Assembly (NCBI GenBank): GCA_025930755.1
Contig: JAICOJ010000001.1
Location: 1-64,000, forward strand
Source: Gemmatimonadaceae bacterium
Lineage (GTDB): Bacteria; Gemmatimonadota; Gemmatimonadetes; Gemmatimonadales; Gemmatimonadaceae
Length of the DNA stretch: 64,000 bases
Direction of reading: 5' to 3'
Under the pieces are notes generated by a model, which was not told the DNA's origin, did no database searches, and worked only from the letters and a program-made list of their open reading frames with translations. Position 1 is the first letter of the stretch. Each line of letters opens with the position of its first letter. Shown here piece after piece: positions 20,823 to 23,989 of this stretch. A program made the translations under genes and the position numbers.

Positions 20823-21860
20823 GTGGAGTGCGCGTCGGGATCGACGTACCCTCCCCCCCGATTCCTGCCCGTGGACATCGGTTTCGAGCTCTCCAATCTC
20901 TGCAACCTGCACTGCACCCACTGCATCCGTGGGTCGCATCAGGCGACCATCGACCAGCTCGATCTCGCGCTCGTCCGGCGCGTCCTCGACGAGGCGACCG
21001 CGCTCTTCGAGTCGGTCGAGGTGGTGTTCACCGGTGGCGAGCCTCTGGCCTCGGCGCTGTTCCCGGATGTCGTTCGGGAGCTGGCGCAGCGGCGGCTGTC
21101 CTACCGGTTCGTCACCAACGGGTGGCTCGTTCCCCGCCATCTCCCGCTCCTTCAGGCGTACCCGCCGAGGTTCGTCCGCGTGAGCTTGAGCGGCGGCACC
21201 GAATCCACGCACGACCACCAGCGAGGGAACGGCAGCTTTCGCCGTGCGCTGCTGGGGGCGGCGTCGGTGCTCAGCCGCGGCATGGTCGCCGAGCTGTCGA
21301 TGCTCCTCACGCGGCGGAGCCGGTCCGAGATCGGGGAGGCCATCGCCGTCGCCGCCGACCTGCGCGTTCGCGCGCTGCACCTCACGCTCATGCAGCCGAC
21401 GCCGGAGACTGCTGCGTCCGGGTTGGATCTCTCACCGGACGAGTGGCGCGAGGTGGCGCGTGAGGTGACCGCGATCGCACCGCACGCGATCGTCCCGGTC
21501 GTGCTCGATTACGGCGGTCCCCTACCGGTGCCGCGCGAGCGGTGCAACACGCTCGCGTCACGCCAGCTGTACATCGACGCGCGAGGGCGGGTGCCGTTCT
21601 GCTGTCAGCTGTCCCGGTATGGCAGTGGCGGCGAGCGGGTCATCGGTGACCTCAGGCAGGAGCCGCTCGCCGCGATCGCGGCGCGCGCCGGGCAGGCGTA
21701 TGACGCATTCCACGAGGAGACGGCGCACCTGCACCAGATCGGGCAGCTGGACGTCCTCGATGACTTCCCCTGCATGAGCTGCGCACGTCGCCACGGGCAG
21801 ACGCGTTTTCTCGCCGAGTTTCCCGGGCACTCGTGGGCGCAGCTGGCACGGGCATCATGA
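20823..21860 (+). CDS. Radical SAM enzyme with SPASM/twitch-like C-terminus
   Basis: The 345-aa protein has the SAM-cluster motif CNLHCTHC (residues ~27-34), GGEPL for SAM binding, and a Cys-rich C-terminal region (RCNTLASRQLYI, PFCCQLSRYG, FPCMSCARRHG) of the SPASM or twitch kind that binds auxiliary Fe-S clusters. Such enzymes commonly modify ribosomal peptides. It starts at GTG 20823; no strong ribosome binding site is visible. It overlaps the HprK-like gene by ATGA and heads the four-gene cassette. Confidence 0.9.
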   Translation: MECASGSTYPPPRFLPVDIGFELSNLCNLHCTHCIRGSHQATIDQLDLALVRRVLDEATALFESVEVVFTGGEPLASALFPDVVRELAQRRLSYRFVTNGWLVPRHLPLLQAYPPRFVRVSLSGGTESTHDHQRGNGSFRRALLGAASVLSRGMVAELSMLLTRRSRSEIGEAIAVAADLRVRALHLTLMQPTPETAASGLDLSPDEWREVAREVTAIAPHAIVPVVLDYGGPLPVPRERCNTLASRQLYIDARGRVPFCCQLSRYGSGGERVIGDLRQEPLAAIAARAGQAYDAFHEETAHLHQIGQLDVLDDFPCMSCARRHGQTRFLAEFPGHSWAQLARAS

Positions 21861-22618
21861 GTGTCGCGGCCCGTCCCTGGGAATGGGAAGACGTTCGAGC
21901 GGAAACCGACGAGAACGGCGTGCACCTGACTCACGTCGCGGAGGCGGCCGAGCTGTTGCTTCGCAACGGGCGCCTGGTGAAAGGAGCCGGCTACGACGCG
22001 GCCTCCCCAATCGCGCGGCGCTCACTGGCGCGGGTCGGCGCGATTCTTCGGCTTCGCGCGCGCGGCCGCTATCTCGTGCATGCTGCGGCGGTCGTCGATC
22101 CGAGGGGGGGCGCGTGGGTTCTCGCCGGCGACAGCGGGAGCGGCAAGTCGACACTGGCGTGGGTACTCGTCAGGCAGGGATGGTCGCTCCTCGGCGACGA
22201 CGGAGTGCTCATCGAGGATGCGGAGGGTGGCATCATCGCACGGGCCTGGCGGGATCCTCTGCGGGTGAGTCTCAGCCTGGCCAGACAGTTCCCGGAATTG
22301 GCCGGGCTGGCGGGGCGCGTCTCGGCGGGCGACCCGCGGGCGCGCGTTCCTGTGGAGCGCGAGGTCGTCCGGCAGGCCCCGGTGCGAACGATTCTCTTTC
22401 TCGAACGCTCCGAGCGCGATCGCGTGCTGCGGGTGGGGCCCGCCGTCACCCTCGCGTCGCTCGTTCGACAGTCTCCGTGGGTGCTCATCGACGACGAGGA
22501 CGCCCCGCACCATCTCACCGTCCTCGCCGCCGCCGCCGACTCGGTTCCAGCGTATCACCTCGCCCACACGCCGTCGCAGCTGGAAGAGCTACCGCGGACC
22601 CTCGCCAAGCTCTCGTAA
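21857..22618 (+). CDS. HPr kinase-related protein
   Basis: The 253-aa protein has the HprK-type P-loop GDSGSGKSTLAW (~residue 98), preceded by LVHAAAVVD and followed by LLGDDGVLI, the DD pair of this kinase fold. HprK-related kinases occur in PqqD/radical SAM peptide cassettes and in some lasso peptide clusters, where they phosphorylate the peptide. There is no HPr or PTS gene nearby. The partner is inferred to be the peptide encoded downstream. Confidence 0.85.
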   Translation: MSVAARPWEWEDVRAETDENGVHLTHVAEAAELLLRNGRLVKGAGYDAASPIARRSLARVGAILRLRARGRYLVHAAAVVDPRGGAWVLAGDSGSGKSTLAWVLVRQGWSLLGDDGVLIEDAEGGIIARAWRDPLRVSLSLARQFPELAGLAGRVSAGDPRARVPVEREVVRQAPVRTILFLERSERDRVLRVGPAVTLASLVRQSPWVLIDDEDAPHHLTVLAAAADSVPAYHLAHTPSQLEELPRTLAKLS

Positions 22619-22692
22619 CACTCCGTAGTGACCCCGAAGGGTGAGATTCGTCTAACCCGATACACCGGGCGACGACGCCCGCGAGGGGCCCG

Positions 22693-22938
22693 ATGGACGA
22701 AACGCGGGACGCACAATCGAACGAGCGTGATTCGACCGACACGGCAGCGCCGCCGCGCTTGCGGCGCCCTTGGGTCGCGCCCGCGCTGACGCGCCACGCA
22801 TCGCTCACCGCCCTCACGCTGCAGTATCCGCCGCAGCTCGTCGTCGATCCGCGTACCGGCCAGCTGCTCGATCCCAACAATCCGGAAGACCGCGTCAAGC
22901 TCGCCGACATCCCGGGGAGCACGGGGTTCTTTCCGTGA
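22693..22938 (+). CDS. Candidate modified-peptide (RiPP) precursor
   Basis: This 81-aa peptide is preceded by GAGGGG at a good distance from ATG 22693. Residues 27-42 (WVAPALTRHASLTALT) fit the lasso-peptide leader motif YxxPxLxxxGxxxxxT, with Trp for Tyr and Ala for Gly. The following region is rich in Pro, Asp, Asn and Thr and ends GSTGFFP. It stands directly after a radical SAM enzyme and an HprK-like kinase and overlaps the next gene by GTGA. Precursor status is inference; no cyclase or protease gene is adjacent. Confidence 0.65.
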   Translation: MDETRDAQSNERDSTDTAAPPRLRRPWVAPALTRHASLTALTLQYPPQLVVDPRTGQLLDPNNPEDRVKLADIPGSTGFFP

Positions 22939-23849
22939 TCCGGCGCGCGCGCGGAGCGGTGGTCGCGATTGTCATTGCCGCCGCGTGCGACGGGACGGGC
23001 CCGCTGGACGTGGCGCTGCCCGCGGTCGTGTTCGTGTCGGGCGTGGGACAGGACGCCGAGCTCTACCTGTGGAGCGCGGACACGGTGACGCGCCTGACGA
23101 GCAACACGGCCGGCGACGGAGAACCGCACGTCGCCGCAGGCCGTCTCGTCTTCACGTCCGATCGCGAGGGAAATCCGGAGGTCTACATCTCGGACGTGCG
23201 GGCCGCCACACCGCGCCGCCTGACCACACACGTCGCGACGGACGGTGAGCCCGCATTGCATCCGGCCGGCGACAGGATCGCCTTCATCAGCCTGCGGAGC
23301 GGCACGCCGCGTCTGTGGATCATGGATACGCTGGGCGGCTCGCTGGCGGCGCTCCCGACCGGCTCCGCGACGTTTTCCCCGGAGCGCGCCCCCGCCTGGA
23401 GCCCGCAGGGCGATCGCATCGCCTTCACCTCGTCGCGAACGGGCACGTCGCAGGTGTTCGTCGTCGACGCGTCCGGAGGCGACGCGGTGCAGGTGACGAC
23501 GGAGCCCGGTGGCGCATTCGACCCGTCCTGGAGTGCCACCGGCACGCACATCGTCTATGCGGCTGGCGGGGGCACGCCGCGGTTGCGGGCCGTTCGGGTG
23601 ACGGGAGGCGAGGCCGCGGATTATGCCGTCCTTCCAGACACGGCGTTAGGCGAGCCATCCTGCGGCGCGCATTACTGCGTGGCCGTGCGCGGGGCCTATG
23701 GAGACGATGGTGACCTCGTCGCCTTCGGGGCGCCGCGGGTGGCGAGCGGTGGCGTGGGCGTGCCGCCGATCCCGCCACCGACGACGGGCGTGCGAGTGCT
23801 GGTCGAGGAAACGGGCAACGATCGCCAGCCGGCTATCGTGCCCGACTAG
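22935..23849 (+). CDS. PD40/TolB-like β-propeller lipoprotein
   Basis: The 304-aa protein starts at GTG 22935 overlapping the precursor stop. A signal with Cys (AIVIAAACDG) is followed by PD40-type repeats (VFTSDREGNPEVYISDV, RIAFISLRSGTPRLWIMD, RIAFTSSRTGTSQVFVVDA) of a TolB-like propeller. A surface or periplasmic binding role is likely. Coupling to the RiPP-like genes suggests a part in export, sensing or binding of the product. Confidence 0.82.
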   Translation: MIRRARGAVVAIVIAAACDGTGPLDVALPAVVFVSGVGQDAELYLWSADTVTRLTSNTAGDGEPHVAAGRLVFTSDREGNPEVYISDVRAATPRRLTTHVATDGEPALHPAGDRIAFISLRSGTPRLWIMDTLGGSLAALPTGSATFSPERAPAWSPQGDRIAFTSSRTGTSQVFVVDASGGDAVQVTTEPGGAFDPSWSATGTHIVYAAGGGTPRLRAVRVTGGEAADYAVLPDTALGEPSCGAHYCVAVRGAYGDDGDLVAFGAPRVASGGVGVPPIPPPTTGVRVLVEETGNDRQPAIVPD

Positions 23850-23856
23850 TTATGTA

Positions 23857-23976
23857 AACGGCAAAGATGACGGAATTCAGAATACAGAATTCAGAATCCA
23901 GAAACGACCACGGGGAGCCACACGCCGGCTCCCCGTAGGTTTTAGCTGAATTCTGAATTCTGTCATCTTTGCCGTT
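23857..23976. repeat. Hairpin element, family C copy 1 (ATTCAGA heptamers)
   Basis: The outer 15 bp AACGGCAAAGATGAC (23857-23871) pairs perfectly with 23962-23976. Inside are tandem GAATTCAGAAT units on both sides and a central stem CGGGGAGCC/GGCTCCCCG. It lies between convergent genes and is AT-rich compared with its surroundings. Confidence 0.92.
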
Positions 23977-23989
23977 GAGTCGCCACGCC

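Follow-up and report, generated by a model that had tools for sequence, protein, structure and literature searches.

The 64,000-nucleotide stretch analysed here (hereafter the window; contig JAICOJ010000001.1 of a Gemmatimonadaceae bacterium) carries a candidate cassette for a ribosomally synthesized and post-translationally modified peptide (RiPP), made of four tightly packed plus-strand genes for a radical SAM (rSAM) enzyme, an HprK-like kinase, an 81-aa peptide and a PD40 lipoprotein (Table 1). A sequence-only reading had described four co-directional genes joined by short overlaps or a short gap, and all of these open reading frames were confirmed: the rSAM and kinase genes meet in an ATGA overlap, the peptide and PD40 genes in a GTGA overlap, and 74 bases separate the kinase gene from the peptide gene. 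In the other genome of the same genus (G001), all four genes were kept in the same order with 74-83% aa identity. They are intact in both species, and the ratio of nonsynonymous to synonymous substitution rates (dN/dS) was ~0.13-0.19 for the three proteins besides the peptide. No homologue of a lasso cyclase, of the leader peptidase B2 or of PqqD was found by tblastn across the 64-kb window.

Table 1 Features of the cassette (window coordinates)
Feature	Position	Strand	Evidence
Radical SAM enzyme with one-cluster (twitch-type) auxiliary domain	20823..21860	+	PF04055 1e-15; 3+5 conserved Cys; folds BlsE, SkfB, PqqE, SuiB
HprK-like peptide kinase	21857..22618	+	Invariant H75, GxxGxGKS 91-98 and D115, with D114; AlphaFold pLDDT 87.7; HprK_rel_A 5e-10
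Precursor peptide, 81 aa	22693..22938	+	Kept in G001; same leader in 22/26 related rSAM loci
Leader motif W27xxPxL...T42, presumed to bind the RiPP recognition element (RRE) and guide cleavage	22771..22818	+	W/F/Y-xxP-x-L/V/I and position-16 Thr in 39/39 precursors compared
C-terminal core motif GSTGFFP, residues 75-81, candidate modification site	22915..22935	+	C-terminal S-T in 20/24 rSAM-linked vs 0/15 rSAM-less cores
PD40 beta-propeller lipoprotein, lipobox ...AACDG	22935..23849	+	PF07676 3e-27; homologues in most related cassettes, whether or not these have rSAM

The leader of the peptide has W27, P30, L32, A36 and T42 in exactly the lasso-type spacing, as had been noticed from the sequence, with W in place of Y; the NCBIfam lasso leader model gave 10.9 bits (cut-off 19). 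Comparison with G001 gave a dS of ~0.74 for the whole peptide. The first 24 residues had a dN of 0.37, against 0.024 for residues 25-44 and 0.037 for the core; the low values of leader motif and core stand against a dS of ~0.6-1.0. Because dN was low there relative to the N-terminus, the leader motif and the core are the constrained regions of the peptide, which is the pattern expected of a RiPP precursor, and their dN/dS of ~0.02-0.06 indicates strong purifying selection. The peptide frame was conserved between relatives, as the sequence-only reading demanded, and the sequence comparison indicates that it is genuine.

The same reading would have been undermined by homologous cassettes without a conserved small open reading frame. 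A scan for the strict motif followed by a short tail, on the same strand and within 4 kb of rSAM-family members with enough flank (26 loci, the window included), was positive at 21 loci, and L126 was added by inspection, which brought the loci with a same-leader frame to 22/26 and left the reading unrefuted. No precursor was found for L072, L129, L141 and L147, relaxed motifs included. Within the 64-kb window the strict motif plus short tail appears a single time, and two control sets, 777 kb taken from other rSAM loci and 649 kb of Gemmatimonadota sequence in reverse, gave zero matches. Weak peptide matches in L039 and L041-L045 were set aside as coincidental, with no cassette genes there.

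Core features were compared in 24 rSAM-linked and 15 rSAM-less precursors, which are not independent sequences; all 39 have W/F/Y-xxP-x-L/V/I and Thr at motif position 16. S-T near the C-terminus was present in 20 of the 24 rSAM-linked cores and in none of the 15 others, and Ser, Thr or Tyr at +3 from the leader Thr was present in 22/24 and 1/15, respectively. Our initial reading of both features as kinase sites was dropped; since kinase-bearing cassettes without rSAM have neither, as sites they would fit the radical reaction better than phosphorylation. The window peptide has no Cys, and at least two Cys were found in only 6/24 rSAM-linked cores. If cleavage follows residue 43, D52 lies at core position 9, as the sequence-only reading had pointed out, and core residue 1 is Gln. 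However, an acid at this place is not conserved in the family (8/23 tabulated cores have no Asp or Glu at all, and only 7/23 have one at positions 7-9), and the Asp means little. Threading is unlikely, with no cyclase homologue found, no conserved acid, and Gln at core position 1.

The rSAM protein matched the Pfam models Radical_SAM (1e-15) and, partially, SPASM (5e-5). The family alignment showed a conserved CxxxCxxC motif and five more conserved Cys past the barrel (C, CC, CxxC), fewer than the seven Cys of a SPASM domain, which holds two auxiliary clusters, and the pattern fits a twitch-type auxiliary domain with one cluster rather than a full SPASM domain (definitions from PMC9012708). 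The earlier label of a SPASM-like rSAM enzyme was right about the radical SAM domain and the partial SPASM match, but the auxiliary domain is better described as twitch-type. The closest NCBIfam models were MftC (74 bits) and ScmF, all far under cut-off. The predicted structure had a pLDDT of 78 with the auxiliary-cluster region poorly modelled, and its nearest folds were BlsE, SkfB, PqqE and anSME/SuiB. An alternative start, GTG at 20871, coincides with the point where the alignment of the relatives begins and may be the true start. As for the type of radical reaction, a cross-link is our tentative first guess, ahead of epimerisation or a C-terminal change.

The kinase had also been named HPr kinase-like from the sequence, and this was borne out. 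Its Hpr_kinase_C match (3e-5) was under the Pfam cut-off, but its predicted fold (the AlphaFold model of Table 1) matches HPr kinase/phosphorylase and PEPCK structures. The closest NCBIfam models were HprK-related A (5e-10), HprK-related B and ScmC, all far under their cut-offs. Residue comparison showed that the kinase has counterparts of all eight catalytic-motif residues described for BsfK (PMC10368454). Further HprK-like matches in L079-L083 were set aside, as they belong to other neighbourhoods. The phosphosite of LppA and BsfA is core Ser3 (PMC13381572, PMC10368454); LppK was inactive on S3T and S3Y (PMC13381572), and BsfK on S3Y (PMC10368454). Because the +3 residue here is Tyr45, the window peptide is more likely to be phosphorylated at Ser76 or Thr77.

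Of 395 genomes sampled from the phylum, 18 had members of the rSAM family; they are spread over several families, and the named records are MAGs (metagenome-assembled genomes) of Gemmatimonadaceae, Gemmatimonadales and Longimicrobium, with one deltaproteobacterial outlier. The rSAM tree groups the window with G001, G003 and L134, with modest support at the fork joining that clade. The cores of this clade end in (G/C)-S-(T/Q)-G-F-(F/C)-P, and two Cys of the sister cores (CSTGFCP) are replaced in the window (GSTGFFP), while the other cores of the family are mostly Gly-rich and end in G-S-T-V-F or similar. One compact operon, L122, contains two precursors, rSAM, a lipoprotein, a secreted protein, PD40, PqqD, B2 and HprK, and its core is QTGPGIPGGGGPGGGGSTVII. 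A tblastn search with one query found no cyclase homologue in the related rSAM loci. Large secreted proteins were also seen inside the rSAM operons at L121:9862-14363 and L122:8616-11241; some of them resemble each other and have the sequence SDILLRLRSGSPxxDRFRVDS, twice in tandem in L121.

A second group of Gemmatimonadaceae cassettes has no rSAM and the order SEC-peptide-HprK-(PqqD)-PD40, where SEC is a lipoprotein family without Pfam match (L218, L226, L227, L228, L230, L036, L037 and L076). Most of their cores have a pair of Cys towards the C-terminal end (ISC...CG or QCFDxxGxPxxC). Other cyclase-less sets, with HprK, PqqD, B2 and a nucleotidyltransferase, were seen at L078:6003-9499 (G040) and L038:8657-11731 (G026); their precursors are very short (29-30 aa), four of them in tandem in L078, e.g. 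MRKTFTAPKLVHEATLASLTLNPVTSQTV, and the core would span only ~8-10 residues.

The window genome encodes three PqqD-like proteins above the Pfam cut-off, and B2 at contig C165 and at C40/C207, where the latter pair resembles two ends of one broken gene. C207 (L096:2-6706) and C40 (L095:3-678) carry an apparently canonical lasso cluster broken over the two contigs, with PqqD, B2, an Asn-synthetase cyclase, precursors MYEKPRVERFGTFRELTRAG... and VYEKPKVQRFGTFRELTQAG..., an HprK-like kinase, an ABC transporter and a nucleotidyltransferase-like protein. C165 (L093) carries a SEC lipoprotein, PqqD, B2 and a nucleotidyltransferase in this order (PF05402, PF13471, PF14907), and no leader-motif peptide, kinase or cyclase adjoins them. 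So the earlier statement that cyclase, protease and PqqD are missing is correct for the window, but PqqD and B2 do exist in the same genome. A fusion of the RRE to rSAM or to the kinase was also considered and rejected: the rSAM alignment begins at the barrel, and the kinase N-terminus is similar where PqqD stands alone.

All four C165 proteins had their best matches in G003 or L134 (identities to G003 and L134: PqqD 57% and 49%, B2 49% and 58%, SEC 38% and 39%; nucleotidyltransferase 45% in G003), and the rSAM enzymes of these two are the nearest to that of the window outside the genus (61%). In G003, the sister operon reads peptide-SEC-rSAM-HprK-PqqD-B2-nucleotidyltransferase-PD40, put together from two contigs (609-bp overlap at 94%), and L134 retains this order up to its contig end. 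On the ispG side the C165 genes have neighbours in common with the rSAM-less cassette site of G022, and on the other side with that of G033. The simplest reading is that one ancestral operon is now split, with rSAM-HprK-peptide-PD40 in the window and SEC-PqqD-B2-nucleotidyltransferase at C165. We read the two sites as one split RiPP pathway because the C165 proteins best match the loci with the nearest rSAM, where the genes form one operon, and we infer that the C165 proteins act on the window peptide. FusB1, a lasso RRE from outside Bacillota, bound non-cognate precursors (PMC13381572), which makes such action in trans more plausible.

Overall, we consider it probable that the cassette belongs to a split RiPP pathway, in which a lasso-leader precursor is altered by rSAM and the HprK-like kinase, with RRE and B2 supplied from C165. 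The stand-alone PqqD-like RRE would bind the leader (W27..T42) and present the precursor to the enzymes. The rSAM/twitch enzyme would make an oxidative change in the core, likeliest at the C-terminal G-S-T-x-F and/or at Tyr45, the +3 hydroxyl residue, and the kinase would phosphorylate a core hydroxyl. The B2 cysteine peptidase would cut the leader off near Thr42-Leu43, the nucleotidyltransferase may add to the phosphate, and PD40 and the second lipoprotein could handle the product within the cell envelope; its export and role, like the cleavage site, are presumptive. The Bradymonas proteins BsfK, BsfB1 and BsfB2 are a precedent for a precursor kinase and for a B2 assisted by a separate RRE (PMC10368454), and LppK for a kinase that phosphorylates a linear lasso-leader peptide more than once (PMC13381572). 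The sequence-only preference for radical chemistry and phosphorylation over threading agrees with the kept kinase residues and fold, the lack of a cyclase in related loci and the acid-free cores, although the chemistry itself is deduced from genes.

Several observations weigh against the split-pathway reading. PqqD and B2 are unlinked to the window cassette, so their use in trans is an indirect conclusion, and the same-genus MAG G001 (81% complete) showed no PqqD of the C165 type. A tblastn search with one query found no exporter in the cassettes. Tyr, the residue 3 after the leader Thr in the window, is not phosphorylated by LppK or BsfK. The core features linked to rSAM may reflect shared ancestry alone, and the window core differs from most cores of the family and exceeds them in length.

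The closest described family is that of the linear polyphosphorylated peptides (LPPs; Nat Commun 2026, PMC13381572), which share with this pathway a lasso-like leader, a stand-alone RRE, an HprK-like kinase, a nucleotidyltransferase and the lack of a macrolactam cyclase. The trio of kinase, RRE and nucleotidyltransferase without cyclase is present here, with the kinase in the window and the other two at C165. But LPP clusters have a SpI-like peptidase and an MsbA-like exporter and are described as Bacillota-restricted, whereas here we found B2, rSAM and PD40/SEC lipoproteins in Gemmatimonadota; the LPP paper makes no mention of rSAM or Gemmatimonadota (PMC13381572). The SpI-like leader peptidase and MsbA-like exporter were not seen in the window cassette or C165, nor in the related cassettes by tblastn. 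That the product amounts to a linear phosphopeptide of the LPP type, with rSAM acting elsewhere or as minor tailoring, would suit the many rSAM-less cassettes of the family that have this leader together with the kinase and PD40. We think this quite unlikely, as the precursor lies directly beside rSAM in most rSAM loci and the rSAM-linked cores have shared features of their own. Contig C223 of the same genome (L094:6448-9601) carries another candidate RiPP set, which resembles an LPP-type set plus a radical SAM: a signal-peptidase-I-like protein, HprK-like and PqqD-like proteins, a different rSAM (387 aa, nearest to the GeoRSP/MftC models) and a peptide of 58 aa (MTKRDPYIKPSLLRLEFTQDVAVCDITSCKT...) whose tail is rich in Cys and Ser.

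Phosphorylated lasso peptides (paeninodin and the Bradymonas bsf cluster, PMC10368454) share the leader, RRE, B2, nucleotidyltransferase and an HprK-like kinase with the same catalytic residues, but unlike this cassette they have a cyclase and a core acid and no rSAM. The YxxPxL...T leader with RRE and B2 is found here, the latter two unlinked at C165, but tblastn found no Asn-synthetase-like macrolactam cyclase in the window cassette or the related ones, the one identified in the genome sits in the separate lasso cluster, and acids at core positions 7-9 are the minority noted above in spite of D52. A phosphorylated lasso peptide made in trans by the Asn_synthase cyclase of C207/C40, with core residue 1 joined to Asp52 in a ring, could call on the lasso-type leader, on the lasso-type PqqD and B2 of the genome and on the Asp at core position 9. 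It is nevertheless very improbable: the C207 cyclase is accompanied by its own precursors, no related cassette showed a cyclase homologue by tblastn, acids are inconsistent in the cores, and core residue 1 is Gln. A core Cys for the thioether of sactipeptides or ranthipeptides is absent from the window peptide.

The SynChlorMet system (NCBIfam TIGR04248-TIGR04251) likewise joins an HprK-like ScmC, a PqqD-like ScmD and the rSAM/SPASM proteins ScmE and ScmF, but the scores stayed far below its cut-offs in the TIGR04249/TIGR04250/TIGR04251 test (ScmC 34.6 vs 125 bits, ScmE 52.4 vs 400, ScmF 69.2 vs 400). Pyrroloquinoline quinone (PQQ) and mycofactocin pathways share a small precursor, an RRE protein and rSAM, and the PqqA leader has a lasso-like motif, but they have no kinase and other cores and Cys patterns, and the window rSAM is far under both families' cut-offs. 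A redox cofactor or signal of this kind, for which rSAM would alter the last residues and the remainder be discarded, draws on MftC as the best NCBIfam relative of rSAM, on PqqE as a near fold, on the leader type shared with PqqA and on the V-F ends of many cores. We regard it as unlikely, as MftC (TIGR03962) has a cut-off of 265 bits against the 74 obtained, the C-terminal residues vary (FFP, FCP, VIP, VVP, VII, VCP), the window core is conserved over its full length, and neither a kinase nor a nucleotidyltransferase would have a role. A decaying remnant left by the operon split is highly improbable as well. PqqD, B2 and SEC are gone from the window site, the Cys pair of the sister cores is replaced, and PqqD of the C165 kind was not found in G001, but four intact genes in two species, the low dN/dS of three proteins and a peptide core among the most constrained parts are hard to reconcile with decay.

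We rated the split pathway as a radical SAM branch of the cyclase-less, lasso-leader phosphopeptides. In the open-licence literature searched, no description of a lasso leader combined with rSAM and kinase was found, though an unseen description is possible. With somewhat better than even confidence, we propose a new RiPP class that spans several Gemmatimonadota families. In it, RRE, B2 and a lasso-type leader would serve a twitch-type rSAM and a peptide kinase on the same core; the products would be phosphorylated, radically cross-linked or otherwise oxidised peptides that share a conserved C-terminal S-T-x-F-like motif and are handled by dedicated beta-propeller lipoproteins, the pathway being split between two loci in this genus. 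This suggests that lasso-type leader recognition (RRE and B2) works with rSAM and kinase replacing the cyclase, which would support the leader module as a general adaptor accepting different chemistries. More than 20 precursor/enzyme sets are now available in a phylum without such a product in the literature searched. The locus is also a clear example of a RiPP operon split within one genus, and the window cassette would escape genome-mining rules that require an RRE close to the precursor.

Directly 3' of the PD40 gene, at window positions 23858-23985, a long inverted repeat (GGCAAAGATGAC...GAATTCAGAAT / ATTCTGAATTC...GTCATCTTTGCC) flanks a GC-rich hairpin and resembles a small repetitive element or a terminator.

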